Virus record (IMG/VR): IMGVR_UViG_3300005264_000124
Span: 1 to 55,685 of that record
Source: a virus
Length of the DNA: 55,685 nucleotides
Direction: 5' to 3' (one strand)
The position numbers and the translations under genes were made by a program. Below are positions 9,824-55,519 of this stretch, piece by piece. Position 1 is the first letter of the stretch, and each line of letters starts with the position of its first letter. Under the pieces are notes generated by a model. The model made no database searches and was not told the origin of the DNA. It saw only the letters and a program-made list of their open reading frames with translations.

Positions 9824-9890
9824 AATAATATACAATATATTATTCTTTCATTATTATAATATATAATTAAAGATAAGAAGTATTACAAAA
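9824..9890 (-). promoter_or_regulatory. shared promoter/hairpin leader (minus strand)
   Basis: Read on the minus strand: TTGTAATACTTCTTATC, an AT-rich core (AATTATATATTATAATAATG), then a 9-bp inverted repeat AATAATATA-TTG-TATATTATT, then the ribosome binding site of the 77-residue gene. The same array occurs before a dozen genes in the window. Confidence 0.7.
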
Positions 9891-9918
9891 AAAATAGAAT
9901 AGGTATAACCCTATTCTA
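9887..9918 (-). terminator. terminator of HAD gene
   Basis: Stem TAGAATAGG with CCTATTCTA overlapping the stop codon of the HAD gene, preceded on the + strand by an A-run. Confidence 0.75.
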
Positions 9919-10534
9919 TATTATCATTAATATTTAATATATTAATTATTTTATCTGCATCTATTTCATTCAGACCTCTAACTTGTATAAATTCATCTGG
10001 ATAAAATGTTATTATATCAAATTTTTCATCATCTAATATAGCAAATGATTCAAGTTTTCCATATTTATCTTCATGATTTAAACACGCTGTCTCTAACCAA
10101 TCCTTAATCTCTGCCCCTCTACAGCTACCAACATTATGATCTATTCCATCTAATTTAACAATTCCACTTTTAAAACCTGTTGTACCAATACAAGCTTCTG
10201 GATATTTAAATCCTTTTAATGTTAAATACAATGCTAGATTATCAACACCGTCTCCTCGCCACGATGTACTAAATACAATTTTACATCCAGTTTCTTTTAC
10301 AATTTTATTTAACCATTGTGTTTTATCATAATCTATATTACTTATCATATATAATGATGGTGGTTTGTCAAAATGCTCATCATCAAATTTATATTTCAAT
10401 AATGCATAATATACATAATTATTAACTTTTTTATATAGCTCATATTCCTCTTCAAAATAATCTATTTCATGTTTTTTATTATTTGGATAATCTCCGTTTA
10501 ATACTCCATCAAAATCTAAAAACAATATCTTCAT
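9911..10534 (-). CDS. HAD-superfamily phosphatase-like protein
   Basis: A 207-residue HAD-fold protein. Motif I is FLDFDGVL at residues 5-12 (nucleophile D7, acid D9). Motif II is IVFSTSWRG, with the Trp-Arg typical of the HAD branch fused to phage and RNA-repair proteins. A C-terminal acidic motif ILDDEKFD supplies the magnesium ligands. It therefore probably hydrolyses a phosphate ester in the cytoplasm, possibly on nucleotides or nucleic-acid ends; the substrate is unknown. Start with AAAGGAGATTATAC. It lies downstream of WG-repeat genes on the same strand, and a decayed WG module sits between them. Confidence 0.75.
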   Translation of the reverse strand: MKILFLDFDGVLNGDYPNNKKHEIDYFEEEYELYKKVNNYVYYALLKYKFDDEHFDKPPSLYMISNIDYDKTQWLNKIVKETGCKIVFSTSWRGDGVDNLALYLTLKGFKYPEACIGTTGFKSGIVKLDGIDHNVGSCRGAEIKDWLETACLNHEDKYGKLESFAILDDEKFDIITFYPDEFIQVRGLNEIDADKIINILNINDNIE

Positions 10535-10547
10535 GTATAATCTCCTT

Positions 10548-10642
10548 TATTCTATAGTATTACCATTAATACATATATAAATATATTCATTATTTGATAT
10601 AACCATAGCTATACCATTTATATATACATATACATGATCATA
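10548..10642 (-). pseudogene. decayed WG-repeat module after a stop codon
   Basis: Directly in frame after the TAA of the WG gene (10643), the minus strand encodes another repeat: YDHVYVYINGIAMV, then ISNNEYIYICINGNTIE and a second TAA. It keeps the unit's rhythm (Y-D-x-V, N-G-I-A) but has lost F-H-I and G-K-P-L-Y. The ending GNTIE resembles GNIIE at the end of the gene at 11677. It looks like a former C-terminal module cut off by a stop or by recombination. Confidence 0.65.
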
Positions 10643-11254
10643 TTATTTTTCTTCTACTTTTTTACCATTGAGATCTATATTTATCCATTTATCATCTAAT
10701 TCTACACTAGATATATTATTTACATAAATACTTATATAGTCATATCTCTCTTCATATAATGGCTTTCCGTTAATGTCTATATGAAAGTGTTTATCATTTA
10801 ATTGAGCTCTAGATATATTATTTTTATAAATACTTACATAATCATATTTTTCTTTATATAATGGTTTACCTTTAAGATCTATATGAAATTCTTTATCATC
10901 TAATTGAGCTCTAGATATATTATTTTCATATTCACTTACCCAATCATATTTTTCTTCATATAAAGGTTTACCTTTAGTATCTATATGAAACCGTTTATCA
11001 TTTAATATAGCTACAGCTATATCATTTTTATAATTACTCACCCATTCATATTTTTCTTTATATAATGGTTTACCATCAAGACCTATATGAAAGTACTTAT
11101 CGTTTAATCTAGCTACTGCTATACCATTTATATATACACTTACCCAATCATATCTCTCTTCATATAAGGACTTACCACTAAGATCTATATGAAACCATTT
11201 ATTATCTAATATAGCTATACCATCTTTATTTCTACATATCCAATCATATTTCAT
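10643..11254 (-). CDS. WG-repeat protein, 6 units
   Basis: A 203-residue protein made of about six tandem units of 32-33 residues with the consensus Y-D-x-V-S-x-Y-x-N-x-I-A-x-x-x-L-D-x-K-x-F-H-I-D-L-x-G-K-P-L-Y-E-E-R. This matches the WG-type (KWG) beta-repeat family, whose members are thought to bind ligands or proteins; no enzymatic residues. No signal peptide, so likely cytoplasmic or virion. Its start overlaps the region just after the stop of the preceding WG gene, with AGAAGGAGAATAAT as the binding site, making a two-gene set. It ends KKVEEK; a remnant repeat continues in frame past the stop. Confidence 0.8.
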   Translation of the reverse strand: MKYDWICRNKDGIAILDNKWFHIDLSGKSLYEERYDWVSVYINGIAVARLNDKYFHIGLDGKPLYKEKYEWVSNYKNDIAVAILNDKRFHIDTKGKPLYEEKYDWVSEYENNISRAQLDDKEFHIDLKGKPLYKEKYDYVSIYKNNISRAQLNDKHFHIDINGKPLYEERYDYISIYVNNISSVELDDKWINIDLNGKKVEEK

Positions 11255-11255
11255 A

Positions 11256-11582
11256 TTATTCTCCTTCTACTTTTTTACCATTGAGATCTATATAAAATTC
11301 TTTATCGCCTAATTGAACAAGAGCTGTATCAGTATCATCAAAACGACTTATTAAATCATATCTTTCTTCATATAATGGGTTACCTTCATTATCCATATGA
11401 AACCATTTATGATCTATATTTACTAGAATAATATCATCATATTCACTTACCCAATCATATCTTTCTTCATATAATGGGTTACCGTTTTTATCTATATGGA
11501 ATTCTTTACCATCTAATTCGACTATAGCTACACCATTTACATATTCATATATCTCATCATATTCTTCTTTAATATTTTTCAT
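11256..11582 (-). CDS. WG-repeat protein, 3 units
   Basis: A 108-residue WG-repeat protein with three units (for example YDWVSEYDDIILVNIDHKWF, then H-M-D and G-N-P-L-Y-E-E-R). It uses G-N-P-L-Y where its neighbours mostly use G-K-P-L-Y, and ends DLNGKKVEGE, very like the next gene's end. It is first in a pair with the 203-residue WG protein one base downstream. The binding site AAGGAGATGATATAAA is preceded by the shared hairpin leader at 11606-11650. Function unknown. Confidence 0.8.
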   Translation of the reverse strand: MKNIKEEYDEIYEYVNGVAIVELDGKEFHIDKNGNPLYEERYDWVSEYDDIILVNIDHKWFHMDNEGNPLYEERYDLISRFDDTDTALVQLGDKEFYIDLNGKKVEGE

Positions 11583-11605
11583 TTATATCATCTCCTTAAA
11601 TATAT

Positions 11606-11650
11606 GATAAAGTATAATTACTTTATCTTCATTAATATAATATATAATTA
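11606..11650 (-). promoter_or_regulatory. shared promoter/hairpin leader (minus strand)
   Basis: On the minus strand: AATTATATATTATATTAATG core, then GATAAAGTA-ATTA-TACTTTATC (9-bp perfect stem), before the WG pair. Confidence 0.7.
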
Positions 11651-11652
11651 TA

Positions 11653-11685
11653 AAAAATATAGAATAGACATTAATTCTATTCTAT
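11653..11685 (-). terminator. terminator of 11677 WG gene
   Basis: A 10-bp stem (ATAGAATAGA with TCTATTCTAT) beside an A-run on the + strand; it overlaps the end of the gene. Confidence 0.75.
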
Positions 11686-12306
11686 AATATTACCTTTAAG
11701 ATCTATATTTATCCATTTATCATCTGTTTCTACAATACTAATACCATTAATATAGTTTCCTATAAAGTCATATCTTTCTTCATATAATGGTTTACCATTA
11801 AGGTCTATATGAAACCATTTATTATCTAATTTAACTCTAGCTATATTATTTATATACTCACTCGCATAATCATATCTTTCTTCATATAAAGGTTTACCTT
11901 TAAGATCTATATGAAAGTATTTATTTTCTAATTGAATAGAAGCTATATTATTTTCATAATTATTTATAAAGTCATATCTTTCTTCATATAAGGGCTTACC
12001 TTTAAGGTCTATATGAAATTCTTTACCATCCAATCTAACCATAGCTACACCATCTTTATATTCACTTACCCATTCATATCTTTCTTTATATAAAGGTTTA
12101 CCATTTTTCTTTATATGAAAGAATTTAATATCTAATCTAGCTCTAGCTACACCATTAAAATATGTACTTACCCAATCATATCTTTCTTTATATAATGGTT
12201 TATGTTTAATATTAATATGAAACATTTTATTATTCGATCTAACAACACTACTATCATCATCACTATTTGTACTTATCCAATCATATTTTTCTTTATTTTT
12301 TATCAT
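11677..12306 (-). CDS. WG-repeat protein, 6 units
   Basis: A 209-residue protein of six WG-type units (signature F-H-I-D-L-K-G-K-P-L-Y-E-E-R-Y-D), ending IDLKGNIIE. Unit one is more divergent (NKMFHINIKHKPLYKERYDW). The near-identical coding sequence between units means recombination within and between the six WG genes is plausible. Binding site CAGAGGAGTGATATAA; shared hairpin leader upstream (12335-12372); own terminator. The gene is divergent from the DNA polymerase gene. No catalytic motifs; function unknown. Confidence 0.8.
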   Translation of the reverse strand: MIKNKEKYDWISTNSDDDSSVVRSNNKMFHINIKHKPLYKERYDWVSTYFNGVARARLDIKFFHIKKNGKPLYKERYEWVSEYKDGVAMVRLDGKEFHIDLKGKPLYEERYDFINNYENNIASIQLENKYFHIDLKGKPLYEERYDYASEYINNIARVKLDNKWFHIDLNGKPLYEERYDFIGNYINGISIVETDDKWINIDLKGNIIE

Positions 12307-12334
12307 TTATATCACTCCTCTGTTTTAATATATA

Positions 12335-12372
12335 ATAAAGTATAATTACTTTATCTTCATTATTATAATATA
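12335..12372 (-). promoter_or_regulatory. shared promoter/hairpin leader (minus strand)
   Basis: Minus-strand core ATATATTATAATAATGAAG followed by ATAAAGTA-ATTA-TACTTTAT (8-bp stem), upstream of the 11677-12306 WG gene. Confidence 0.7.
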
Positions 12373-12479
12373 TAGTTTAATAATATATTAAAATGTGTGT
12401 GCCTTCCGCTATGTATATACACAAACAAAATTAAAAGATATAATATGTTTAACATAAAATTAAAAGGAGATGATATAAT

Positions 12480-14576: not shown

Positions 14577-14591
14577 GGAGAGTGATTTAGT

Positions 14592-14936
14592 ATGTTTAAA
14601 CTTTATAAACCTTTTGAATTTATATTAGACATGCATAATGTCAGAAAAGAAAAAATAGATACAAAATTTAAAGTAATAAAAATGTTAATTCATACTGCTA
14701 ATTCTGAACAAATATATATACATTCTATATATATATATTATATGGCATGCTATCAATATAATATTGATGTAAATTCTTTTTATTTAGAAAAATTAAGAGA
14801 TGATAAAGAATTAAGAAATTATGGTATTAAGATATTTTATTACGATGATGGCGAAATATCATACTGTACAAACAGTATTAATTTAACTTATAATGGAGGT
14901 AAATATAATGAATGGGGCGGGCACTATAAAAAATAG
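14592..14936 (+). CDS. small unknown protein, 114 aa
   Basis: A 114-residue protein, Tyr/Ile-rich, lacking recognisable motifs; the segment IYIHSIYIYYMACYQYNI is hydrophobic but broken by polar residues, so a membrane role is doubtful. Start with AAGGAGAGTGATTTAGT, 15 bases after the polymerase stop, so co-transcribed with it. The end overlaps the next gene by 29 bases. Confidence 0.6.
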   Translation: MFKLYKPFEFILDMHNVRKEKIDTKFKVIKMLIHTANSEQIYIHSIYIYYMACYQYNIDVNSFYLEKLRDDKELRNYGIKIFYYDDGEISYCTNSINLTYNGGKYNEWGGHYKK

Positions 14937-15117: not shown

Positions 15118-15122
15118 AATAA

Positions 15123-15155: not shown

Positions 15156-15161
15156 TATTTT

Positions 15162-18662: not shown

Positions 18663-20279
18663 ATGACAAAAGAATTTAAAGTTGAAATATTAGATATAGA
18701 AAAATTAATAAAGACTAATGGAATAGAAGAAGTTACTAATCCTGTATTTTTTGAAAAAGAGAACGTTCCAACTATTGATGGATTATTATCAAATGAATTA
18801 TTTGGAATTAGTAAAGATGATAGATCTCATAAATATGCATATATAGATTTATCTGATTATTTTTTACATCCTTTTATTTATAAACAATGGTCTGCTATGG
18901 ATAAAAATATAAAGCATATTGTTTATGGAACTAAAAAATTTGTTATTAATAATAAAGGTTATTTTGTAGAAGATGAAAATGGAGATACTGGTATATCATT
19001 TTTGAAAAGAAATATTAATAATATAAAAATATCTAGTACTGGCAAGACTAGAAGAGATGTAAAAATAAAATTATTAGAGGAAAATAAAGATAAATTATTT
19101 ATCAAAAAATATTTAGTAATTCCAGCATATTATAGAGATGTGAATAGTACAGGATCTAAAGGTATTGGTGTTGGAGAAATAAATAAATTATATAGTAAAC
19201 TTTTAATATCAGTAAGATCTTTAAAAGAATCAAGTGATTATGGAATACTTATGGGAAATTCAGTAAAAGCTAGAATACAAGAATTATTAGTAGCTATATA
19301 TGATTGGTTCGTAAGTGAACCAAATTTATCTGGTAAGAGAGGTATCACTAGAAGATCAGTAATGTCTAAGACAACAGATTATGCATCTAGATTAGTAATA
19401 TCATCTCCTGATATAGATTCTGAAGATTATAATGATTTAATGGTTAACATAGATACATCTGCAGTTCCTTTAGCTTCAATAACTGCAAATATGTTTCCAT
19501 TAGTTATGTTTAATTTAAGAAGATTCTTTGAGAATGAATTAGCGTCTGGACAATATCCAGTTAAGGATAAAAATGGAGAGATTACATATCATAATATTAA
19601 AGATTTCCATGAAGCATTTTCTGATGATAAATTAAAAAAGCATATAGATAATTATATAAAAAGTTATTCTAATAGATTTGAACCAATAGAAATAGTATTA
19701 GATAATGGTAAAACAGTAAATATGAAATTTAAAGGATACCATGTTGATCCTAAACATGTAGACGATCCTGGAACTAATAAAATTATGGTAGATAGACCAT
19801 TAACATGGTTAGATGTAATTTATATTGCAGCTAAGGAGGCTACTGAAGATAAACATATATTAATAACACGTTATCCTCTTGAAGATAGCTTTGGTCAATT
19901 TCCTACAAAAATAGATATATCTACAACTAAGAAAACTGAACCTATTATTATTGGAAATAAATTATATAAATTTTATCCTTATATAAGAAAAGAAGATATT
20001 GGTAGAGATACTAGTAGTATGTTTATTGATACTTTGAGAATGAGTAATCTACATCTTAAATCAATTGGTGGAGATTATGATGGTGATCAAGTTACTATTA
20101 AAGGTGTATATAGTATTCAAAGTAATGATGAATTAGATAAATTCATGGATAAGAAGCATCATTATCTTGCAGTGAACGGTATAAATATTAGAGTATCATC
20201 TAATGAAGCAGTACAAGCTTTATATAGCTTTACAAAAGTATTAGATTCTAAAGAATTAAAAAATCCTAAATTTAATTAA
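18663..20279 (+). CDS. phage RNA polymerase beta-prime subunit, N-terminal half (catalytic DxDGD)
   Basis: Part of a phage-encoded multisubunit RNA polymerase. The magnesium-binding loop is plain: GG-D471-Y-D473-G-D475-QVT, equivalent to NADFDGD of bacterial beta-prime. About residues 224-245, GKRGITRRSVMSKTTDYASR plus LVI matches the K-G-R-x-R-x-x-L-x-G-K-R-V-D-Y-S-x-R-S-V-I segment. ITRYPLEDSFGQ fits the R-x-P-x-L-H segment. At 538 residues it stops soon after the catalytic loop; the rest of beta-prime is the separate gene at 34120. Such splitting is known from phiKZ-like and AR9-like jumbo phages. Binding site AAAAGGAGATTATAAT. Followed by a bidirectional terminator. Confidence 0.85.
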   Translation: MTKEFKVEILDIEKLIKTNGIEEVTNPVFFEKENVPTIDGLLSNELFGISKDDRSHKYAYIDLSDYFLHPFIYKQWSAMDKNIKHIVYGTKKFVINNKGYFVEDENGDTGISFLKRNINNIKISSTGKTRRDVKIKLLEENKDKLFIKKYLVIPAYYRDVNSTGSKGIGVGEINKLYSKLLISVRSLKESSDYGILMGNSVKARIQELLVAIYDWFVSEPNLSGKRGITRRSVMSKTTDYASRLVISSPDIDSEDYNDLMVNIDTSAVPLASITANMFPLVMFNLRRFFENELASGQYPVKDKNGEITYHNIKDFHEAFSDDKLKKHIDNYIKSYSNRFEPIEIVLDNGKTVNMKFKGYHVDPKHVDDPGTNKIMVDRPLTWLDVIYIAAKEATEDKHILITRYPLEDSFGQFPTKIDISTTKKTEPIIIGNKLYKFYPYIRKEDIGRDTSSMFIDTLRMSNLHLKSIGGDYDGDQVTIKGVYSIQSNDELDKFMDKKHHYLAVNGINIRVSSNEAVQALYSFTKVLDSKELKNPKFN

Positions 20280-22083: not shown

Positions 22084-22157
22084 TTATAGTAATGTTCTAT
22101 TTTTGTAATACTTCTTATCTTTAATTATATATTATAATAATGAAAGAATAATATATT
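22084..22157 (+). repeat. 74-bp intergenic sequence duplicated at 55402-55475; shared leader core
   Basis: Identical by eye over 74 bases to 55402-55475. Both copies sit directly upstream of a minus-strand propeller fibre gene and a plus-strand gene. It contains TTGTAATACTTCTTATC and the core AATTATATATTATAATAATG. In this copy the downstream half of the usual hairpin is replaced by a different leader. Confidence 0.75.
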
Positions 22158-22162
22158 TAGTT

Positions 22163-22251
22163 GATTATGATAAACATCATAGCTTAAGCACGGGCTAAAC
22201 GATCCTAGCGACGTTCAATGTTCTGCACACATAATAATATAAATCATAATC
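22163..22251 (+). promoter_or_regulatory. structured, GC-richer 5' leader
   Basis: GATTATGAT (22163-22171) pairs perfectly with ATCATAATC (22243-22251), enclosing a 71-base interior that is far richer in G+C than its surroundings (for example AAGCACGGGC and CCTAGCGACG). Inside, GCTA/TAGC (22194-22197 with 22206-22209) and AACG/CGTT (22198-22201 with 22212-22215) can form alternative or interleaved pairings. It lies just before a ribosome binding site. I cannot match it to a known riboswitch, ribozyme or tRNA. Confidence 0.45.
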
Positions 22252-22276
22252 TTATATTTTAAAGGAGGAATTAAAA

Positions 22277-22477
22277 ATGACAACTACAAATAAAGTAAAC
22301 AAAAATAATTTAGCACCTGATGGATCTGATGTATATATTAAAACTATTGGTAGTCTAATATGTATATTCATCTTTGGAGTTAAGTATTATGTAACAACAG
22401 ATACAACAAGATTAAATGAAATTATTTATAATTTCAGAAAAAATGAGAAAAGTATATACATTGAAAATATAGCTTAG
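22277..22477 (+). CDS. small unknown protein, 66 aa
   Basis: A 66-residue protein with a polar N-terminus (MTTTNKVNKNNLAPDGS), a hydrophobic stretch IGSLICIFIFGVKYYV that could be a single membrane segment or a beta hairpin, and a charged C-terminus. Unknown family. Strong site AAAGGAGGAATTAAAA. It stands alone between the structured leader and its own terminator, so it is regulated separately from its neighbours. Confidence 0.65.
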   Translation: MTTTNKVNKNNLAPDGSDVYIKTIGSLICIFIFGVKYYVTTDTTRLNEIIYNFRKNEKSIYIENIA

Positions 22478-25949: not shown

Positions 25950-25995
25950 AATTATATATTATATTAATGAAGATAAAGTAATTGTACTTTATTAT
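25950..25995 (+). promoter_or_regulatory. shared promoter/hairpin leader
   Basis: Core AATTATATATTATATTAATG, then ATAAAGTA-ATTG-TACTTTAT (8-bp stem), then ATATATTAAAAAGGAGG. Confidence 0.7.
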
Positions 25996-26022: not shown

Positions 26023-26550
26023 ATGGAAGATAAAGCATTTATACAAAAATTATATTTCTTCGAAGCATTAAAAGAATTTTTATTAATATATGCCCATAGT
26101 AATATTGGTGGCGAAATAGAAATCAATATAGAAGAAGTTGCAAAATATTTAGAATCAGATAGATTCCTAATCCAAATAGGAATAAATAAATATACACGAG
26201 ATGAAATGTTTAAATTATTAGAAGAAGATTTATTAAGCGGTATGCCAGTATGGAAATTTTTAAAATTAACAGAATTTCAATATAAATATCTAAAAGAAGA
26301 ATTAGAAATATTATCGACAGATATTAAAGATAAACTAAAAGATGAATATTTATGTCCTACATGTATATTTTATGAAATTAGTAATACTAGTTTTGGAACT
26401 TTTAATAAATGTAAATCTTATGGTATACTAAAAGGTAAAGAAATAAAAAGAGGAATTACTAATTCAAGATTTAGAAATACATTAATTAGACGTGGAGGTA
26501 GTGATTTACCTGTAAAAGAATGCAAAGATTATATTAAGGGAGATGTATAA
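26023..26550 (+). CDS. unknown protein with four-cysteine zinc-site candidate, 175 aa
   Basis: Start chosen at ATG 26023 (MEDKAFIQKLYFFEALKEF), preceded by AAAAAGGAGGAGTTATGTAAAA; the longer frame to 25927 runs through the leader hairpin. The N-terminal 110 residues are helical and acidic. The C-terminal 60 hold C-P-T-C, later NKC and KEC, arranged like a small zinc ribbon, with basic residues between. Unknown family. First gene after a shared hairpin leader and overlapping the WG gene's alternative start, so the two are co-transcribed. Confidence 0.65.
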   Translation: MEDKAFIQKLYFFEALKEFLLIYAHSNIGGEIEINIEEVAKYLESDRFLIQIGINKYTRDEMFKLLEEDLLSGMPVWKFLKLTEFQYKYLKEELEILSTDIKDKLKDEYLCPTCIFYEISNTSFGTFNKCKSYGILKGKEIKRGITNSRFRNTLIRRGGSDLPVKECKDYIKGDV

Positions 26551-26551
26551 T

Positions 26552-27436
26552 ATGAAATTTATTAAAGAATTATTAATTAAATATTTTTATAAAAGCAAGA
26601 AAGATAAATATGTAAGTCAATATAATAATGGTATAGTTAAGTTAGACGATAAGTTCTTTCATATAGATAATAATGGTAAACCACTATATGAAGAAAGATA
26701 TGACTGGGTTTATACATTTTATAATGATATAGCTGTAGCTAGAATGGGTAATAAATGGTTTCATATAGGTTTAGATGGTAAACCATTATATGAAGAAAGA
26801 TATGATGAGATACATGACTATGAAGATGGTATAGCTGCTGCTAAATTAGATAATAAAATGTTCCACATAGGATTAAACGGTAAACCATTATATAAAGAAA
26901 GATATGATAGTGTATATAAATTTTATGATGATGTTACAATAGCTATATTAGATGGTAAATATTTTCATATAGATAAAAATGGTAAACCTATATATGAAGA
27001 AAGATATGATTGGGTAAGTGAATATGAAGATGGTATGGCTAAAGTTCAATTATATTATAAACAATTTCATATAGATAAAAATGGTAAACCATTATATGAA
27101 GAAAGATATGATTATATTTATGATTACAAATATGGTATATCTAAAGTTAGATTAGATGGTAAATATTTTCATATAGGTCTTGATGGTAAGCCTTTATATG
27201 AAGAAAGATATGATTGGACAAATGATTATATCTATGGTGCTGCTATTGTTAGATTAGGTAATAAGTATTTTCATATAGACCTTAAAGGTAAACCATTATA
27301 TAAAGAGAAATATGATGATATACGTATAGAAAGTGACGAATTAACAATAGCTAGAATAGGTGGAAAATTTGTTGAAATAGATATCAAATATAGATCAATT
27401 GCAGAAATAGAAATGGATAATGAAAAAGATTTTTAA
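26552..27436 (+). CDS. WG-repeat protein, 8 units
   Basis: The largest WG-repeat gene here: about 294 residues with eight units (for example KFFHIDNNGKPLYEERYDW). Start placed at ATG 26552, eight bases after AAGGGAG; an ATG at 26543 overlaps that site. A 20-residue Lys/Tyr/Phe-rich N-terminus (MKFIKELLIKYFYKSKKDKY) precedes the repeats; it is not a clear signal peptide. It ends with a divergent module. It follows the four-cysteine protein in the same transcript. Function unknown. Confidence 0.8.
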   Translation: MKFIKELLIKYFYKSKKDKYVSQYNNGIVKLDDKFFHIDNNGKPLYEERYDWVYTFYNDIAVARMGNKWFHIGLDGKPLYEERYDEIHDYEDGIAAAKLDNKMFHIGLNGKPLYKERYDSVYKFYDDVTIAILDGKYFHIDKNGKPIYEERYDWVSEYEDGMAKVQLYYKQFHIDKNGKPLYEERYDYIYDYKYGISKVRLDGKYFHIGLDGKPLYEERYDWTNDYIYGAAIVRLGNKYFHIDLKGKPLYKEKYDDIRIESDELTIARIGGKFVEIDIKYRSIAEIEMDNEKDF

Positions 27437-27810: not shown

Positions 27811-27821
27811 TATCTAAATTA

Positions 27822-27897
27822 ATTATATATTATTATTATGATAGTAAAGAGATTATAAAAAAATAGTCTCTATAACTATAAAGTAAATCATAGTGAA
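27822..27897 (+). promoter_or_regulatory. leader with core and two hairpins (divergent form)
   Basis: TTAATTATATATTATTATTATG resembles the shared core in position and sequence (differing near its end). It is followed by AGAGATTAT/ATAGTCTCT (one G-U pair, A-rich loop) and then ACTAT/ATAGT. It precedes the 27923 gene. Confidence 0.5.
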
Positions 27898-30209: not shown

Positions 30210-31400
30210 ATGATTAGTAATACATACAGATATACAATATCCATGAATTGGGTTAATGGGGAAGAAACCATTCCTATACAACAGAATAGAATATCATCAT
30301 TAGTAATAGACTATGACTATGAGCGTGCTAATATGCCAGTGATGATGATAACAATGAAATTATCAAGAAATTTTATAGATAAAATAATATTAAATAAAGT
30401 TAAATCTAAATTTTTTGTATCGATAGATAAATTTAAAGAAGACAATATAGATTTTAAGAAAAAATATATTAGAGGAGAGTTTATTTATTTCATTTCAAAA
30501 GATATAAATTATTCTAAAAATATAGATTATACAACATCGACTAATGTAGATTCGACAGAAGAAGATAAAGCGTATAAAGTTACTATAGGATTATTTAATA
30601 TAGAATTTATAAATTCTAATAAACAAACGATTAATGCTATATATAAAGATGCTACTAGGAGTGAAATAATTCTTTTAAATACTCGTCATGCGAATTTAAT
30701 AATGGAGCCATTTAGTAATGATATAAGATATGATGAAATATTAATTCCACCAGTGAATAGTATTTCACAATTACTTAAATATTTAAATAATATTAATTCT
30801 TTATATGACACACCATATAGATATTTTATAGATTTTGATGAAAATATATATTTAATGAGTTCTAAAGGAAATCCCATTGCTACAAATACAGATAATAATA
30901 CTGATGTAAATATACGTATAAAAGATCCTAGATATTTAGATTCTAAGGTTCAAGGTATAATTTATGATGAATCTGCAAATAGTCATATATTAGATGTATC
31001 TGCAGAGAATACTAAAGTTAAAATAAATAATGCTCAAGATAAATTATATAATCGAATTATTACTATAGATGGCAATGGTAATACACAAAGAATTGATTTA
31101 GATATAAATAGAGATCCAGCTATAAAAGATTTAGATTTATTTATAAAAATAAATAATCTTAATGCTAATGCTATAAATATAATAAAAAAAGAAAGTGAAA
31201 AATCATCTATAAATGTATTAATAAATAAATCTAATATTGATAGTTCTGCATTTACTATGAATAAAAGATATTATATAAATCATTTTGATAGTTATAAAAA
31301 TCTGAATGGTAATTATATAATAAATGATAAAAAAGAGATATTCGTATTAAATGGTGATTCATTCAAAATAAATATAGTATGCAATTTTTATAAGATATAA
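30210..31400 (+). CDS. tail hub-like protein candidate (gp27/gpD type)
   Basis: A 396-residue beta-rich protein. Its middle (PPVNSISQLLKYLNNINSLY, then YRYFIDFDENIYLMSSKG) follows the pattern of baseplate hub and late-control D proteins, where a helix is followed by a strand pair reading out a loop. N-terminal half consists of alternating strands, and the C-terminal part ends in a short beta domain. A hub protein would sit at the tail centre under the tube. No enzymatic motif. Strong site TATAGGAGGTATCAAAA, single gene between terminators. The hub call is from pattern only. Confidence 0.45.
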   Translation: MISNTYRYTISMNWVNGEETIPIQQNRISSLVIDYDYERANMPVMMITMKLSRNFIDKIILNKVKSKFFVSIDKFKEDNIDFKKKYIRGEFIYFISKDINYSKNIDYTTSTNVDSTEEDKAYKVTIGLFNIEFINSNKQTINAIYKDATRSEIILLNTRHANLIMEPFSNDIRYDEILIPPVNSISQLLKYLNNINSLYDTPYRYFIDFDENIYLMSSKGNPIATNTDNNTDVNIRIKDPRYLDSKVQGIIYDESANSHILDVSAENTKVKINNAQDKLYNRIITIDGNGNTQRIDLDINRDPAIKDLDLFIKINNLNANAINIIKKESEKSSINVLINKSNIDSSAFTMNKRYYINHFDSYKNLNGNYIINDKKEIFVLNGDSFKINIVCNFYKI

Positions 31401-31434
31401 AGCTATACCCTTAATACGGGTATAGCTTCTTTTA
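31400..31434 (+). terminator. terminator of hub-like gene
   Basis: 11-bp stem AAGCTATACCC with GGGTATAGCTT and T-rich tail. Confidence 0.85.
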
Positions 31435-31442
31435 TTGTATTT

Positions 31443-31505
31443 GTAATACTTCTTATATCTGGTTATATATTATAATAATGAAAGAATAATATATTGTATA
31501 TTATT
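31443..31505 (+). promoter_or_regulatory. shared promoter/hairpin leader
   Basis: GTAATACTTCTTATAT, core GGTTATATATTATAATAATG, then AATAATATA-TTG-TATATTATT (31485-31505), before a WG gene. Confidence 0.7.
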
Positions 31506-31531
31506 TATATATTTTAAAGGAGTTGAGATAA

Positions 31532-31867
31532 ATGAAAAAGAGTATTTATGAAACATTAAGAAGTGTATATGATGAGGTAAATATGTTTAATGATGGTATA
31601 GGTATTGCTACATTAGATGGTAAACAATTTCATATAAATTCTAATGGTAAACCATTATATGAAGAACGTTATGATAAAGTATGGGAATTCAATAATGGAA
31701 TAACTATGGCTAGATTAGATAACAAAGAATTCCATATAGGTTTAGATGGTAAACCTATTTATGAACAAAGATTTGATACAGCTCTACGTTTTAAATATGG
31801 TAAAGCTAGTGTTATTTTAGACCATGAATGTTTTTATATAGACATCAATGGTAATAAGATAGTATAA
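31532..31867 (+). CDS. WG-repeat protein, 3 units
   Basis: A 111-residue WG-repeat protein of three units (for example KEFHIGLDGKPIYEQRFDT). The third unit is divergent (HECFYIDINGNKIV). Binding site TTTAAAGGAGTTGAGATAA. It has its own shared hairpin leader, and another leader copy begins 10 bases after its stop. No terminator is apparent between, so transcription may continue into the 31972 gene. Function unknown. Confidence 0.8.
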   Translation: MKKSIYETLRSVYDEVNMFNDGIGIATLDGKQFHINSNGKPLYEERYDKVWEFNNGITMARLDNKEFHIGLDGKPIYEQRFDTALRFKYGKASVILDHECFYIDINGNKIV

Positions 31868-31877: not shown

Positions 31878-31922
31878 AATTATATATTATAATAATGAAA
31901 GAGTAATATATTGTATATTACT
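31878..31922 (+). promoter_or_regulatory. shared promoter/hairpin leader with compensated stem
   Basis: Core AATTATATATTATAATAATG, then AGTAATATA-TTG-TATATTACT. Compared with the sister copies, an A-T pair has become G-C with both sides changed. Confidence 0.7.
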
Positions 31923-31930
31923 TTATATTT

Positions 31931-34052: not shown

Positions 34053-34096
34053 AATTATATATTATATTAATGGAGATAAAGTAATTGTACTTTATC
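34053..34096 (+). promoter_or_regulatory. shared promoter/hairpin leader before RNAP gene
   Basis: Core AATTATATATTATATTAATG, then GATAAAGTA-ATTG-TACTTTATC (9-bp perfect stem, 34075-34096). Confidence 0.7.
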
Positions 34097-34119: not shown

Positions 34120-36126
34120 ATGTTAAATAATATTGAAATGTATGGTCCTTATAAGGATATACTAACCAAACCAATATATGTAAAAACTAAAGATTTATAT
34201 GATATTGATTATCATATAAATTCAATGCTAAATATTTTTAAAGATGGTATAGAAATACCAGAATTAAATTCTATATTTATATCTATAGAATTTTCAGATA
34301 ATATAACATTAGAATTATCAGCACATGATTATTTAATTAATTTAATAATGTGGAAACCTATACGATTAATATATAATGAGATTAAAGCTCATCATGTATT
34401 TTTTCCAGAACCTGCTATTACTAGAAATAGTTTAAAAAATTATATAGATATATTTATAATAGATAAATTAAGAGATAAAATGCAAAATAATAAATTAAAT
34501 AATATTATTAATGATTGTATTAGTCCTTTAAAATTTATAGATAATTTTAGTTATTTTCTATCTAATACAATTAATATAGAAGATGATATAAAATTAATGC
34601 GTAAACATCCTGAAGTACGAAAATTATTAAATTCTGATTTATCACATATTCCAATAGAAGATGTTAATAATGTAGCTATGGAACTTACTGATACATTGAT
34701 AGATTATATTGTAAAAGATGATCATAATATGAAAGTATATTTTCAATCAAAAGAAGGAATAAAAAAGAAACAATATAAAGAATATGCTATAAACATTGGT
34801 CCTAAACCAGATGGTCAAGGAGGGATATTTTCAGAAATAATTAATAGTAGTTTTGTAAATGGTGGATTGAAAAATATATCATCATTATTTATAGAAAATA
34901 GTGCTGGTAGAGTAGCTCAAATATTATCTAAACAAAATGTAGGAAGAAGTGGTCATTTTGCTAGGTTGCTAGGATTAAATAATTCTAATAGTATATTCCA
35001 TAAAGATCCTAAATATTCATGTGATACTCAGAATTTACAAATAATTACAATTAAAAATCAGAAAATGTTAGATAAATTTAAACATAGATATTATCGTAAT
35101 TCACCAAATGGTGTTGAACATAAAATAGATATTAATGATACTAGTTTAATAGGTCGCACAATACATTTAAGATCACCAATGACATGTGCATCAGCAGCAA
35201 GGGGTGAAGGAATATGTTATAAATGTTATGGCGATTTAGCATATATCAATGCAGATATAAATGCTGGAAAAATCGCTGCACAATTATTATCAGCGATATT
35301 AACACAAATGTTATTATCTGCTAAGCATTTATTAGAAGCTATGATTAGGAATGTTAATTGGGGAGATTACTTTAATGAATTCTTTAATGTAGATGCCGAT
35401 ACTATTACAGTATTAGATGATATAATAAATAAAGGATATAGTATTATTATAGATACTAATTATATAGAGAGAGAAGAAGAATTAGATGATAAAGACTTTA
35501 ATGAATATGTATCTTCTTTTAGTGTACTTAGTCCTAATGGAGATACTCATGATATAGGGAACAATGAAAATAAATTATTTATAACTAATGAATTTAATAT
35601 GATCATTAAAAGTAAAGCAGTTAAATATAATGATAATTGTATTAAAATTCCTATAGACCAAAGTTTTGAAGAAATATCTATATTCATGGTTAAAATTCAT
35701 AATAATGAATTATCAAGAATACTAGAAAAGTTAAAAAGTATATTAGACTCAAAAAAGATGACAGAATCTTTTAACAGACACGAAATATTACAAGAATTTG
35801 TAGAAGTATTATTAGAAGGTCATGTAAATATTGATTCTATACATGCTGAATTAATTATATCAAATCAGATTAGAGCATTAAATGATATCTTAGAAATTCC
35901 AGATTGGTCTAAATATAATGAGCCATATCAGATATTAACATTAAAGAAAGCTTTAGAATTAAATCCTAGATTAACTGTGTCATTGTCATCAGTGGCATTA
36001 GCTAGACAAATATCTTCACCATTAACATATTTGAAATATAAACCTGCTAAAATGGATTTATTCTTTAATGTAACACCACTAGAATACATTATGAGCTCAA
36101 AAGAAAAATTAAATGAAAATGTGTAG
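34120..36126 (+). CDS. phage RNA polymerase beta-prime subunit, C-terminal half
   Basis: The remainder of beta-prime, 668 residues. From about residue 228, GPKPDGQGGIFSEIINSSF then GGLKNISSLFIENSAG aligns by pattern with the bacterial K-P-D-G-x-x-x-x-x-P-I-x-x-x-F-R-E-G-L region and trigger-loop helices (GRSGHFARLLGL). Four cysteines stand where the bacterial C-terminal zinc site has them: C301 (SCDT), C356, C366 and C369 (GEGI-C-YK-C-YGDLA). GKIAAQLLSAILTQMLLSAKHL corresponds to G-x-I-A-A-Q-S-I-G-E-P-G-T-Q-L-T-M, though the S-I-G-E-P-G part is changed. It lies nearly 14 kb from the N-terminal half, as in phiKZ/AR9-type enzymes. Binding site AAAAAGGAGTGATTAG. No beta subunit is in the window. 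Confidence 0.85.
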   Translation: MLNNIEMYGPYKDILTKPIYVKTKDLYDIDYHINSMLNIFKDGIEIPELNSIFISIEFSDNITLELSAHDYLINLIMWKPIRLIYNEIKAHHVFFPEPAITRNSLKNYIDIFIIDKLRDKMQNNKLNNIINDCISPLKFIDNFSYFLSNTINIEDDIKLMRKHPEVRKLLNSDLSHIPIEDVNNVAMELTDTLIDYIVKDDHNMKVYFQSKEGIKKKQYKEYAINIGPKPDGQGGIFSEIINSSFVNGGLKNISSLFIENSAGRVAQILSKQNVGRSGHFARLLGLNNSNSIFHKDPKYSCDTQNLQIITIKNQKMLDKFKHRYYRNSPNGVEHKIDINDTSLIGRTIHLRSPMTCASAARGEGICYKCYGDLAYINADINAGKIAAQLLSAILTQMLLSAKHLLEAMIRNVNWGDYFNEFFNVDADTITVLDDIINKGYSIIIDTNYIEREEELDDKDFNEYVSSFSVLSPNGDTHDIGNNENKLFITNEFNMIIKSKAVKYNDNCIKIPIDQSFEEISIFMVKIHNNELSRILEKLKSILDSKKMTESFNRHEILQEFVEVLLEGHVNIDSIHAELIISNQIRALNDILEIPDWSKYNEPYQILTLKKALELNPRLTVSLSSVALARQISSPLTYLKYKPAKMDLFFNVTPLEYIMSSKEKLNENV

Positions 36127-43989: not shown

Positions 43990-44023
43990 AAAAAATGATA
44001 TAGGAAATAAATCCTATATCATT
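43990..44023 (-). terminator. terminator of 44014 gene
   Basis: 12-bp stem AATGATATAGGA with TCCTATATCATT, with an A-run on the left. Confidence 0.85.
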
Positions 44024-45522
44024 GTAATATAAATTAATAATTCTTCAATCATAATATCTTTATTTATTTCAAGTTCTATTCCATCTATCTCTTTATCATA
44101 ATAATCTACTATTTTAAATTTAGATGATAGAATAGAAGCTATCATAGATAATATTTGTTTCTCTATTTCTTCGTCTCTATATTTATTTTTTATTTGAGCA
44201 TAGTATGAAGAAGTCTTTAATTTAAGTTTCTCTTTCTTATTAACTTTTTTCCTATTAACTTGTTTAGTTATTTCGCTAGAAAGTATATATGGAAGTATAC
44301 GAAACTTCTGTAATAGCAACATCTTTTTAGCTGCTATCATAAGTTTAATATAATCTTCTTTATTAATAGCTTTGATACTTACAGGATCACCAAAATACTT
44401 ATAAAATAAATTAAATATTAAAAGTTTTTGAAACATATTCATTATATTTACATGATCAAGATAGAAATCTATTTCATCTTGATTAAAAGGCCCAAATTTA
44501 GCCTCAATAATTTCCATAGTTTTTTCACTATTAACTACATTTTGCATATACAAAGATTCATCTTGTTTAATCTGATAAGCTTCAAATTTATCAAATTCTG
44601 AATTATCATTTTCATCTCTAGATGAATTAGATAAACTTATTAAATTATATTGGTACTCATTATTTAATACTTTGTAATTTAATCCATATCTTATAGTTGA
44701 AAAATTATAAGATATCATATTTTGAGAATAAATATATTTGGGTATTATATTTATTATAATATTTTGAGTAATATTTAATGACTCTATTAATGTGTCTATC
44801 CCTCTAATATCTTGTTTAACCCAGATAGGTTTATTATCTCTTTCTGATTTATTAGTTCTAGTGCTAACTGTTTCATAAAGTTTATTAATAATATGAACAC
44901 TAGAAAAAGTATTTATTACTATATCATATATACTAGCAATAAATCCATCTACATCTATTATTTGTTTTATATAAATAAAATGTGTAATTAAAGGAATTAA
45001 TATATTCATATATAAACTAATTAGCATAAGTATTTTTCCATGTTCATTATCATATTTTAATGATTCATCACCTCTATTATACGTTAAATTAATTGTATAA
45101 TTATCATCATTCATCATTATTAATTTAACTTTTAAATTTGGCCCTAATATATAATTTTGAATATCAAATTTAAAAGCATCAATTCCATATAATTGTTCAT
45201 AATCAATCATATATTTAATCTTAGCATATATTGATAATAATTCTTTATCTTTATCATAAAATTTAAAGAAATAATTTAAATATAAAGATGTGTGAGGTCT
45301 CATTTTATCACTATTATAACATCTTTTCTTTATCATATTAAAATTATTATATGTTTTATATAATGGATTATTAGTATTAACACCTATAATATTTGATAAA
45401 GGCATTTCTATAAATCCATTAGTGCTTGTTACAATCTTATCTTCTTTACGTGGTTTCCATTCATCTACATAGATGATATCTCGTGGTTTGTTTATTAATT
45501 CAAATGGTGATTGTAAATTCAT
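44014..45522 (-). CDS. unknown large protein, 502 aa
   Basis: A 502-residue helical protein of unknown family with Lys-rich C-terminal stretch (QVNRKKVNKKEKLKLKT) followed by an acidic end. It contains a strongly hydrophobic segment (MLISLYMNILIPLITHFIYI, about 165-185), possibly a membrane span or buried helix. It has its own shared leader (45558-45600) in which the hairpin stem is a different sequence. I considered an RNA-polymerase-associated subunit or replication protein, but no motif supports it. Monocistronic with terminator. Confidence 0.6.
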   Translation of the reverse strand: MNLQSPFELINKPRDIIYVDEWKPRKEDKIVTSTNGFIEMPLSNIIGVNTNNPLYKTYNNFNMIKKRCYNSDKMRPHTSLYLNYFFKFYDKDKELLSIYAKIKYMIDYEQLYGIDAFKFDIQNYILGPNLKVKLIMMNDDNYTINLTYNRGDESLKYDNEHGKILMLISLYMNILIPLITHFIYIKQIIDVDGFIASIYDIVINTFSSVHIINKLYETVSTRTNKSERDNKPIWVKQDIRGIDTLIESLNITQNIIINIIPKYIYSQNMISYNFSTIRYGLNYKVLNNEYQYNLISLSNSSRDENDNSEFDKFEAYQIKQDESLYMQNVVNSEKTMEIIEAKFGPFNQDEIDFYLDHVNIMNMFQKLLIFNLFYKYFGDPVSIKAINKEDYIKLMIAAKKMLLLQKFRILPYILSSEITKQVNRKKVNKKEKLKLKTSSYYAQIKNKYRDEEIEKQILSMIASILSSKFKIVDYYDKEIDGIELEINKDIMIEELLIYITMI

Positions 45523-45557
45523 TATTATAATCTCCTTTGTCTGATTTAAAATATACA

Positions 45558-45602
45558 GATAATTCCATTAATTATCTTTTATCATTAATATAATATATAA
45601 TT
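45558..45602 (-). promoter_or_regulatory. shared promoter/hairpin leader with different stem
   Basis: Minus-strand core AATTATATATTATATTAATGA, then a hairpin GATAATT-AATGG-AATTATC (45558-45576): same position, unrelated stem bases, pairing preserved. Confidence 0.6.
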
Positions 45603-49234: not shown

Positions 49235-49258
49235 AGTTTTTATAATCCTCCTATAATT

Positions 49259-50148: not shown

Positions 50149-50158
50149 TATTTAATAA

Positions 50159-50754
50159 CTATATTATTTTTATCTCATTAGAGCCCATAAAATTTTCCAT
50201 ATAATCAAATTGAATAAATACAAATAATATAGTATTAGGTGTATCTTCTAATACCATATTATAATCACCAATTTCATCTAACTCTAATTGAATATAATCA
50301 AGTATTGAATTTTCCATATTCATCTTCTGACATAGCTGTACCAAATTGGTATTTCTTAATTCAATAATATTAGAGATTATTTTATTGTTATATATAATCT
50401 TGTGAGGGATCATATCTTTACTTTTAACAAATTTACTAAGATTTTTTAATGCTTTTTTCTGTTCATATATATCATGACGACCTGGTTCTAAATCTAAAAT
50501 AGTTACATCTTGAATACGTAAATCTTTAATATCACTTAAAAGATTATAATCTTTTTTATCAATTACTATAAATTGTTTATTAAATAATTTTTTAAATTGT
50601 ATTAATTCAATATTATTTGAATTTTAATATTTCTAGCTGTGCTATTTGATTCAAATATTATAGCATTACAAATAACATTTCCTATTTGTATATTGTTTCT
50701 TATTGCTGTTGGATCAAAACGTCCTTTTATATTGCTTAATATTTCTTTATTCAT
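50159..50754 (-). pseudogene. unknown gene with single-base frameshift, ~198 aa if restored
   Basis: Starts at ATG 50754 (MNKEILSNIKGRFDPTAI) with AAGGAGATGGTATAA. After about 43 residues the frame closes at 50602-50604. Adding one A to the A-run at 50622-50625 would continue as NSNNIELIQFKKLFNKQFIV and join the frame that runs to 50159, passing through the ATG at 50413 (MIPHKIIYNN), which has no convincing ribosome binding site. Restored length about 198 residues, unknown family. A true mutation or a base-calling error in a homopolymer; the fusion is smooth. Confidence 0.7.
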
Positions 50755-50777
50755 TTATACCATCTCCTTAAATATAT

Positions 50778-50822
50778 GATAAAGTACAATTACTTTATCT
50801 TCATTAATATAATATATAATTA
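50778..50822 (-). promoter_or_regulatory. shared promoter/hairpin leader (minus strand)
   Basis: Minus-strand core AATTATATATTATATTAATG, then GATAAAGTA-ATTG-TACTTTATC, before the frameshifted gene. Confidence 0.7.
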
Positions 50823-51341
50823 AAATATTTTTACCCATTCATTATGCAGCAATCCAATAGATTCTTTATCTTTATTATAACTTATTTGTTCATATCTTTC
50901 TTTGTATAAAGGCTTACCATCTAAACCTATGTGGAACCATTCATTGTCCAACACAGCTATAGCTGCATCATTTATATAATTATATACAAATTCATATCTA
51001 TCTTCATATAGAGGTTTCCCATTAATATCTATATGAAAATACTCAGCACCATACATAACTACAGCTATATTGTTATCATATGCAAGTACTATATCATATC
51101 TTTCTTTGTATAATGGTTTACCATCTAAACCTATATGAAACCATTTACCATCTAATATAACAGTAGATATACCATTTTTATACATAAAAACTTTATCATA
51201 TCTTTCTTTGTATAATGGTTTACCATCTAAACCTATATGAAACCATTTACCATCTAATACAGCTATAGCTATATTATCAATATAGTCGTAAACTTCATCA
51301 TATTCTTCATTGATTAATTTATTATCTTCCATTTTATTCAT
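50820..51341 (-). CDS. WG-repeat protein, 5 units
   Basis: About 173 residues, five WG-type units, several almost identical (KWFHIGLDGKPLYKERYDK). Start uncertain: GTG-ATG at 51344/51341 directly follow AAAGGAG, and the ATG at 51332 (MEDNKLIN) has more normal spacing. Glycine form F-H-I-G-L-D-G dominates here, while the 9.9-12.3 kb cluster uses F-H-I-D-L. It has the shared leader upstream (51361-51404) and the next leader downstream. Function unknown. Confidence 0.8.
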   Translation of the reverse strand: MNKMEDNKLINEEYDEVYDYIDNIAIAVLDGKWFHIGLDGKPLYKERYDKVFMYKNGISTVILDGKWFHIGLDGKPLYKERYDIVLAYDNNIAVVMYGAEYFHIDINGKPLYEDRYEFVYNYINDAAIAVLDNEWFHIGLDGKPLYKERYEQISYNKDKESIGLLHNEWVKIF

Positions 51342-51360
51342 CACTCCTTTAAAATATATA

Positions 51361-51404
51361 AATAATATACAATATATTATTCTCCATTATTATAATATAT
51401 AATT
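51361..51404 (-). promoter_or_regulatory. shared promoter/hairpin leader (minus strand)
   Basis: Minus-strand core AATTATATATTATAATAATG, then AATAATATA-TTG-TATATTATT, before the 50820 WG gene. Confidence 0.7.
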
Positions 51405-51440
51405 AAAAAAAGAGAGTATACCAATTACGGTATACTCTTT
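51405..51440 (-). terminator. terminator (repeated stem type)
   Basis: AGAGTATACC (51413-51422) with GGTATACTCT (51429-51438), A-run on the left; ends the fibre transcript. Confidence 0.85.
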
Positions 51441-51445
51441 ATTTA

Positions 51446-52646: not shown

Positions 52647-52667
52647 TTTATATCACCCCTTATAATT

Positions 52668-54068: not shown

Positions 54069-54083
54069 TTTATATCATCTCCT

Positions 54084-55367
54084 TTAAAATTTATATATAT
54101 CTATTGTTTCTCCACCAGTACCATTTGATAAAGCAAGACCTTCTATATCTGTTTTAGTAAGATCTAGCACTATAGAAGTACCATAAGAGCTATTACCACC
54201 ATCTTTATAACTAACAAGAACTTTAGTACTTGTTAAAGATACTGCACTTACATGATTAGTAATATCACTATTAAATATATAAGAAGTACCACTATTTATA
54301 TCACTTCCAGATATATTAAGTACTATAGAATTACCATAATCATTATTATTATGATCACTATAACTAACAAGAACTAAAGTATCTGATAATTTTACAGCAC
54401 TAATATAATAAGTAGTATCACTATTAAATACATAAGTACTTCCTTTAGTTATAGTATTACCACTTATATTAAGTACTATAGAAGTACCATAATCATTATT
54501 ACCATAATCTCTATAACTAACAAGAACTTTAGTACTTGTTAAAGATACTGTATTTATATTATTAGTATAATCATTATTAAATACAAAAGAACTACCACTA
54601 CTTATAACATCTCCACTTATATTAAGTACTATAGCAGTACCATAATAACTATTATTGCCATTATCTCTATAACTAACAAGAATTTTAGTATTTGTTAAAT
54701 ATACTGCACTTATATAAGCAGTACCGATATTATTAAATATATATTCATTACCACTAGTTATAACATCTCCACTTATATTAAGTACTATAGCAGTACCATA
54801 ACTATTATCACTACTGTTATAACTAACAAGAACTTTAGTACTTGTTAAAGATACTGCACTTACATGATTAGTAGTATCACTATTAAATATAAATTCATCA
54901 CCTTTAGTTATAGTATTACCACTTATATTAAGAACTATAGCAGTACCTTTGTTATAATGAGTAGGATCTTTATAACTAACAAGAACTTTAGTACTTGTTA
55001 AAGATACTGCACTTATATAATCAATTGTATTACTAGTAAAGAATATTCCATTACCACTAGTTATAATACTACCACTTATATTAAGTACTTTAGCATTACC
55101 AAATCTACCAGCACCATCTGTATAACTAACAAGAACTTTAGTACTTGTTAAAGATACTGCACTTATATCAGAAATATTATCGTTATTAAATACATATTCA
55201 TTACCTTTATTTATGTTTATACCTCTCTTTATTACTTCAGTACCATCATAAGATATAAGATCTCCTTTATTTATAGTGCTACCAGTCTTTATTACTGCTG
55301 TTGTCTTTAAAACATCATTTACTTTAATGCCTCTACTACCTTGACCATAAATATATCCTCTAGCCAT
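54084..55367 (-). CDS. intact propeller-repeat fibre protein, seven units
   Basis: The complete family member, 427 residues: tag MARGYIYGQGSRGIKVNDV, a 45-residue adaptor (TINKGDLISYDGTEVIKR), seven repeats of about 50 residues, and the end GTGGETIDIYKF. Each repeat reads like a four-strand blade: I-S-A-V-S-L-T-S-T-K-V-L-V-S-Y, a variable loop (K-D-x-x-N-x-x-Y), G-T-A-I-V-L-N-I-S-G-N, then T-I-T-K-G-S-x-Y-V-F. Seven blades suggest a closed beta-propeller. Variation clusters in the loop after V-S-Y. Binding site AAGGAGGAATATAAA. Probable receptor-binding tip; this function is inferred. Confidence 0.65.
   Translation of the reverse strand: MARGYIYGQGSRGIKVNDVLKTTAVIKTGSTINKGDLISYDGTEVIKRGININKGNEYVFNNDNISDISAVSLTSTKVLVSYTDGAGRFGNAKVLNISGSIITSGNGIFFTSNTIDYISAVSLTSTKVLVSYKDPTHYNKGTAIVLNISGNTITKGDEFIFNSDTTNHVSAVSLTSTKVLVSYNSSDNSYGTAIVLNISGDVITSGNEYIFNNIGTAYISAVYLTNTKILVSYRDNGNNSYYGTAIVLNISGDVISSGSSFVFNNDYTNNINTVSLTSTKVLVSYRDYGNNDYGTSIVLNISGNTITKGSTYVFNSDTTYYISAVKLSDTLVLVSYSDHNNNDYGNSIVLNISGSDINSGTSYIFNSDITNHVSAVSLTSTKVLVSYKDGGNSSYGTSIVLDLTKTDIEGLALSNGTGGETIDIYKF
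54180..55210 (-). repeat. seven tandem ~150-bp repeats
   Basis: Near-identical blocks, including ACTAACAAGAACTTTAGTAC and CTTATATTAAGTACTATAG on the + strand, recur about every 150 bases and also in 20963-22053 and 51446-52646. Confidence 0.85.
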
Positions 55368-55401
55368 TTTATATTCCTCCTTATAGTATTTTTTTTTTCA
55401 T

Positions 55402-55475
55402 TTATAGTAATGTTCTATTTTTGTAATACTTCTTATCTTTAATTATATATTATAATAATGAAAGAATAATATATT
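55402..55475 (+). repeat. second copy of the 74-bp duplicated intergenic sequence
   Basis: Matches 22084-22157 base for base by eye, and again lies just upstream of a minus-strand propeller gene. Confidence 0.75.
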
Positions 55476-55519
55476 GTATATTATTTATATATTTAAACTA
55501 GTATTTAAGTATGATGCTA
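55441..55519 (+). promoter_or_regulatory. shared promoter/hairpin leader plus extension
   Basis: Core AATTATATATTATAATAATG, hairpin AATAATATA-TTG-TATATTATT (55465-55485), then the 25-bp extension also found at 31931-31955. Confidence 0.7.

Follow-up and report, generated by a model that had tools for sequence, protein, structure and literature searches.

A repeated early-promoter cassette with a paired 5' leader in an AR9-like jumbo phage fragment and its relatives

The viral record IMGVR_UViG_3300005264_000124, analyzed over its full 55,685 nucleotides (the window), carries a 20-nucleotide core that recurs in thirteen exact or near copies, most of them followed by a short hairpin. By its sequence and its position, the core appears to be an early promoter that serves the virion RNA polymerase (RNAP) encoded by the phage itself, an enzyme of the AR9/phiKZ kind. 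Strong evidence from relatives indicates that it is pairing at the RNA level, and not sequence, that selection maintains in the hairpin. The best overall explanation, held with moderate confidence, is that the cassette with its 5' stem shields early mRNAs from decay that depends on the 5' end.

The core and the virion RNA polymerase

Gene content marks the window as part of an AR9-like jumbo phage: it encodes a divergent family-B DNA polymerase, GroEL, and split multisubunit RNAPs, the latter found as PHROGs 2986, 3015 and 25005. Early promoters of virion RNAPs are already known as a kind. Those of AR9, determined by differential RNA sequencing, have the form AAATATATATTAT-(6N)-G(+1) and stay active without protein synthesis (PMC5312081); the enzyme that uses them is therefore the injected virion RNAP. 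The window core, AATTATATATTAT-AWTAAT-G with a nearly invariant AWTAAT spacer, fits the AR9 consensus AAATATATATTAT-N6-G in its AT-rich element of about 10-13 nucleotides (nt), its 6-nt spacer, and its G at +1.

Identification of the promoter is based on this consensus together with orthologous position and gene class. AR9 has early promoters directly before g154 (C-terminal part of beta' of the non-virion RNAP, nvRNAP) and g226 (nvRNAP promoter subunit), and none before g145 (virion RNAP) or the GroEL gene g228. The corresponding window orthologues lie at 34120, 44014, 18663 and 46850; cores precede the first two and neither of the last two, matching AR9. Gene neighbors are also common to the two phages, with a helicase after g154 and a primase after g226, and a TATATTAT-type promoter precedes the g154 orthologue in S6, Machias, BpSp and LPJP1 as well. 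An earlier note on this DNA had proposed a promoter plus leader for a phage RNA polymerase, and the proposal agrees with all of these observations. Because the core corresponds to the AR9 early promoter, its last G should be +1, and we infer that transcription in the window phage starts there. The hairpin would therefore form roughly the first 25 nt of the transcript, that is, its 5' end. The cores (putative early promoters), the predicted hairpins, and the three RNAP genes are listed below.

9849..9868, minus: core, exact, AR9 consensus, +1 = 9849
9823..9845, minus: 5' hairpin type A (+5..+27), fold -4.9
11630..11649, minus: core, exact, +1 = 11630
11606..11627, minus: 5' hairpin type B (+4..+25), fold -8.4, z -2.7
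12358..12377, minus: core, one mismatch, outside TATATATTAT-N6-G
12334..12355, minus: 5' hairpin type B, closed by a G-U pair, fold -6.3, z -2.8
18663..20279, plus: virion RNAP beta' N-part, AR9 g145 orthologue (tblastn 7e-68 to AR9 g145), no early core in front
22123..22142, plus: core, exact; leader long, of another structure and without the type A 3' arm
25950..25969, plus: core, exact, +1 = 25969
25972..25993, plus: 5' hairpin type B, closed by a G-U pair, fold -6.3, z -2.6
27821..27840, plus: core, two mismatches, in the 6-nt spacer only; absent from the earlier note
27841..27879, plus: 5' nested hairpin, ATAGT/ACTAT with AGAGATTAT/ATAGTCTCT, fold -13 kcal/mol, z -3.5
31461..31480, plus: core, two mismatches, GG at the two outermost positions
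31484..31506, plus: 5' hairpin type A, by folding
31878..31897, plus: core, exact
31900..31924, plus: 5' hairpin type A with a compensated A-U to G-C change, fold -16.9 including a second downstream hairpin, z -5.0
34053..34072, plus: core, exact, before the nvRNAP beta' C-part at 34120 (AR9 g154 has an early promoter)
34075..34096, plus: 5' hairpin type B, fold -8.4, z -3.0
34120..36126, plus: nvRNAP beta' C-terminal part (7s00_D, E 1.6e-52; AR9 g154, tblastn 4e-52)
44014..45522, minus: AR9 g226-like nvRNAP promoter-recognition (specificity) subunit (7s01_A, E 0.0011 over 58-481; tblastn AR9 5e-7, phiR1-37 1e-14)
45583..45602, minus: core, exact, before the nvRNAP specificity subunit (AR9 g226 has an early promoter)
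45557..45577, minus: 5' hairpin GATAATT/AATTATC, weak, fold -5.2, z -0.35
50802..50821, minus: core, exact
50778..50799, minus: 5' hairpin type B, fold -8.4, z -2.3
51385..51404, minus: core, exact
51360..51382, minus: 5' hairpin type A, by folding
55441..55460, plus: core, exact
55464..55486, plus: 5' hairpin type A, by folding

The repeated element is real. Ten copies of the 20-mer are exact (9849-, 11630-, 22123+, 25950+, 31878+, 34053+, 45583-, 50802-, 51385-, 55441+), one has a single mismatch (12358-) and two have two mismatches (27821+, 31461+). At up to three mismatches the window holds 14 matches; shuffled windows average 2.97, none of 100 reaches 14, and the reversed motif has no match in the window. 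A scan of viral contigs with the exact core found 60 loci, many of them on contigs of 200-290 kb, and these large contigs have 8-49 copies each at up to two mismatches, with 0 or 1 per strand for the reversed pattern. The phrog_2986 RNAP occurs on 14 of 28 core-bearing contigs, and nearly all of the large multi-copy contigs are among these. Dozens of contigs and isolates of large phages carry the same core. A core-plus-leader 25-mer had no match in bacterial genome contigs, a protein search with nvRNAP found no relatives in viral contigs, and a 20-kb megablast search against phages found none either. A host sigma-70 promoter was considered and rejected, as inspection by eye showed no -35 box at proper spacing and conservation across phages spans the whole core instead of a -10 box.

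Two further features lie upstream of the cores. At 11630, 25950, 34053 and 51385, and at many copies in the related genomes G007 and G017, the T-run of an upstream gene's terminator meets the TATATATTAT element; where an intrinsic terminator runs into the core in this way, terminator, promoter and hairpin form one unit. Some cores have a second conserved motif about 20 nt further upstream (about -40 from +1), CTGTTNAAAC in one group and TTTGTAATAC in the other, the groups being drawn from G007, G009, G017 and from the window and G003. A role for either version as a tandem late promoter found no support, and the motif rarely occurs apart from cores.

Pairing in the early leaders

A 5'-proximal stem of the kind described in the earlier note follows 11 of the 13 cores in the window. 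That note had overlooked the nested stem at 27821, with which every core except 22123 has a stem-loop a few bases downstream, beginning at +2 to +7 relative to the predicted +1, and it had correctly listed the core before the gene at 22277 (core 22123) as lacking such a hairpin. It had also named 50159 as the gene behind the 50802 core. That leader is followed instead by a short open reading frame (ORF) near 50754..50605, and 50159 is a downstream piece of what looks like a broken gene, region 50160-50760 appearing frameshifted into the short ORF and this piece. In the leader at 22142-22275, where the type A 3' arm is lost, a GC-richer stretch of about 50 nt lies within a 9-bp GATTATGAT/ATCATAATC stem; as a candidate separate noncoding RNA it was rejected, having no homologue and a fold z-score of 0.45. 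An Rfam covariance-model search gave a single match, below threshold (E 0.84), at 31399-31464.

The window hairpins are essentially two alleles, type A (AATAATATA/TATATTATT) and type B (GATAAAGTA/TACTTTATC). Fold z-scores run from -2.3 to -3.0 for type B and only from -0.2 to -1.8 for the AU-only type A; the hairpin at 45583 reaches -0.35, and the most negative values belong to 31878 (-5.0) and then 27821. The earlier note had argued from compensatory changes on both arms. Within the window these comprise one A-U to G-C double change at 31878 and G-C to G-U changes at 12358 and 25950, and alleles A and B differ by three double changes when paired position by position. As most copies represent just two alleles, covariation in the window itself is real but thin. 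Column counting was not used for types A and B because the MAFFT alignment places the loop gap inside the stem, and it was likewise not used for the MAFFT-aligned pseudoknot leaders described below.

Since per-genome minimum free energy z-scores are weak for AT-only stems, we relied on stem-score tests and on an arm-swap test, which compares how often a 5' arm pairs within its own leader and within other leaders of the same set. On their own, the window and its close kin G004 do not pass this test (3/9, with 145 of 300 shuffles as high). The argument holds, however, in relatives. Own-leader pairing was found in 13 of 18 leaders of G017 and G009 (3.7 expected), 8/16 in G007 (2.0 expected) and 9/22 in G024 (3.9 expected), with 0/300 shuffles as high in each case, and with 8-bp arms in 29 of 39 Staphylococcus phage leaders (3.2 expected, 0/500). 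AR9 shows no such effect (10/37, 8.3 expected, 87/300). In homologous Staphylococcus cassettes, 98.3% of cells are paired, as compared to at most 62% in slid registers, and 8 cells carry double changes vs. 2.3 after shuffling (0/500). Stem positions that depart from Watson-Crick pairing are G-U in 16 cases and A-C in 4, as compared to 2.95 and 2.2 in composition-shuffled sets; in Staphylococcus phages the counts are 7 and 0. Exceptions that are G-U but hardly ever A-C point to RNA of the transcribed strand and not to a DNA dyad. The earlier note had left open an RNA hairpin or a dimeric binding site. The former is favored, and the dimeric DNA site disfavored, because the stems are diverse in sequence, tolerate G-U and not A-C, and stand at the expected +1.

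Stems occur in the window's kin, in G007/G018, G017/G009 and G024, and partly in phiR1-37. The clearest case is that of the Staphylococcus jumbo phages: a strong stem is present in 60 of their 76 distinct leaders (18/20 in S6), beginning exactly at +1 in 40 of the 60 and at +3 in 14. Only these phages and G017/G009 have stems that mostly begin at +1. In S6, in G017 and in G007, the copies within one genome have different stems and loops and share no motif. In AR9 (37 leaders), BpSp and LPJP1 the core is present and stems are no more frequent than expected. On a virion-RNAP tree the hairpin label is unclustered, with four changes on nine labeled tips, at least two of them forced by well-supported branches. 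Stem frequency also differs by leader length: 44 of 80 long leaders have a stem, vs. 5 of 31 in which the Shine-Dalgarno sequence (SD) lies within about 18 nt of +1 (p 1.6e-4). AR9 leaders are mostly short, and the leader of the S6 nvRNAP gene is short and stemless.

Other leader structures were seen among the relatives. Many copies in G007 (L106-L119; e.g. 82067, 127038, 256000) share GAAGTAGAGATGNNACTACTATAAACATAAGGAAGAAA after the variable hairpin, a second small hairpin that also holds a mini-ORF, ATG-NNA-CTA-CTA-TAA. At G007 50116, minus strand, an early promoter is followed by a 5' stem and then a strong terminator within about 55 nt, and this locus possibly encodes a small early RNA without a gene. 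Early leaders of G003 (L126-L137, e.g. 9588) and G011 (L146-L155, e.g. 63766) can form a 5'-terminal H-type pseudoknot that ends just upstream of the SD, and both stems vary together among nine copies; examples of stem pairs are AATAATAG/CTATTATT and AATAAAAG/CTTTTATT, and TTAGTAG/CTACTAA, TGATAGT/ACTATCA and TGTAAGTT/AACTTACA. We propose the pseudoknot for these nine leaders on inspection by eye and shuffling. In the window, a WG-repeat protein family, which looks amplified in this phage, occupies 10643-12306, 26543-27436, 31532-31867 and 50820-51344, and most members have an early promoter cassette nearby or in front of them.

Probable protection of the 5' end and other possible functions

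In the proposed arrangement, an intrinsic terminator (often present upstream) would be followed by the TATATATTAT-N6-G promoter, a stem-loop made of about the first 25 nt, an SD and a start codon. After injection the virion RNAP would initiate at G+1, and the 5' end of the nascent RNA would fold into the hairpin. A 5' end kept out of single strand might be attacked only slowly by the host's RppH-type pyrophosphohydrolase, RNase J, or the 5' sensor of RNase E, and selection would retain pairing while leaving sequence free. Protection fits the leaders because their constant features are an extreme 5' position, pairing, and free sequence. In B. subtilis, RppH requires a minimum of two unpaired 5' nucleotides and works better with three or more, 5' hairpins stabilize mRNAs both there and in E. 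coli, and a ribosome site near the 5' end also stabilizes B. subtilis mRNAs (review PMC3997798). Folding in vivo and a stabilizing function are what we infer from these features.

Several points weigh against protection. The host of AR9 possesses RNase J and RppH, and yet AR9 has no hairpins, which shows that early transcription can proceed without them. The contrast between short and long leaders, which could be a choice between two ways to cover the 5' end or simply geometry, is partly geometric because a stem takes room. Window 5' ends and stem positions are predictions from sequence, and the type A stems are AU-only and weak. Window stems mostly leave 3-4 unpaired 5' nt, a number that RppH tolerates, and the RppH version is the weaker for it in this phage; a block to 5' exonuclease may still operate in this phage despite these free nucleotides.

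The hairpin might instead act in translation, with a leader shape that keeps the SD open or serves as a ribosome standby site. AAGGAG often lies a few nucleotides after the 3' arm in G017 and G009, and the pseudoknot-like leaders of G003 and G011 stop just before the SD, but the distance from stem to SD varies from 0 to about 25 nt while a start near +1 is constant, and we consider this role unlikely. A role in transcription, either as part of the promoter in the manner of the DNA hairpins of the N4 virion RNAP or as an aid to RNA release or promoter escape, is quite improbable: although every carrier has the hairpin right beside its promoter, early promoters with this core have been mapped in AR9 and work without one, the hairpin sequence is unconserved, the N4 hairpin lies upstream of +1, and exceptions of G-U and not A-C indicate the RNA strand.

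That several copies share one stem within a phage, as window types A and B do, is what might be expected of an operator through which a phage or host protein regulates early genes, at a dimeric DNA site or on RNA. This is very unlikely, given that stems and loops differ between copies in S6, G017 and G007 and that a DNA dyad would show no preference for G-U over A-C. Recent cassette copying alone, with no selection on the hairpin, could also make copies alike, and in the window the type A leaders of unrelated genes are indeed almost the same over some 75 nt, and Staphylococcus cassettes form dispersed families. The arm-swap results and the covariation across diverged copies nevertheless require selection on pairing; copying is refuted as a full explanation and retains hardly any probability as one, although it is the likely account of how copies spread.

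Returning to protection of the 5' end, we see about even chances for a broader statement: that in several RNAP-encoding jumbo lineages, including cultured Staphylococcus phages, most messages of the injected RNAP would bear a private 5' stem, a structural cap built into the promoter cassette that was acquired or lost on at least two occasions, the promoter itself staying fixed, and that sister lineages such as AR9 would put the ribosome site near the 5' end instead. The matter bears on how early phage messages survive before any phage protein exists. The 5'-end state of messages in such infections is already a noted puzzle, as AR9 5' ends respond poorly to treatment with terminator exonuclease (PMC5312081). 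The idea is directly testable in the cultured Staphylococcus jumbo phages (S6 and relatives), with AR9, which has the same promoter stemless, as a natural control. With a simple motif, virion-RNAP promoters can be mapped in uncultured jumbo phages, and in some lineages a 5' RNA structure accompanies the promoter.

Comparison with known systems

Keyword searches of the AR9 paper, reviews of jumbo-phage RNAPs and biology, a comparative overview, and a Staphylococcus jumbo-phage paper did not find 5' stems on early transcripts; subscription papers lay outside these searches and absence is unproven. The nearest known promoters are those of AR9 and phiR1-37, phiKZ-related jumbo phages, which share with the window the core TATATATTAT-N6-G, its place before nvRNAP subunit genes, and the split between early and late genes. 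The window differs in that AR9 leaders have no 5' stem and phiR1-37 has one on some leaders only, and in a nearly fixed AWTAAT spacer where that of AR9 is free.

N4 virion-RNAP promoters likewise combine an injected RNAP with a hairpin at the early promoter. The N4 enzyme, a single-subunit RNAP, recognizes a DNA hairpin upstream of +1; the hairpins here are downstream of +1, unconserved, absent in AR9, and dispensable. Elements of T4-type phages use early promoters of the host RNAP. These promoter early stem-loops (PeSLs) resemble the window cassettes as composites of promoter and stem-loop repeated before unrelated genes, in the passages of PMC4503421 that describe them, and a title cited there terms them promoter-terminator motifs. 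The window core is apparently of the phage virion-RNAP type and not a host promoter, and its stem-loop would be the 5' end of the message.

The leaders of ompA, papA and aprE, in which a 5' end in or near a stem slows decay (PMC3997798), are a probable parallel in function. Stems in the phages likewise lie at or within a few nucleotides of the predicted 5' end (+2 to +7 in the window, +1 in 40/60 in Staphylococcus phages). Whereas ompA, papA and aprE are single genes, stems of the window type accompany the majority of early promoters in a genome, and each stem has its own sequence.

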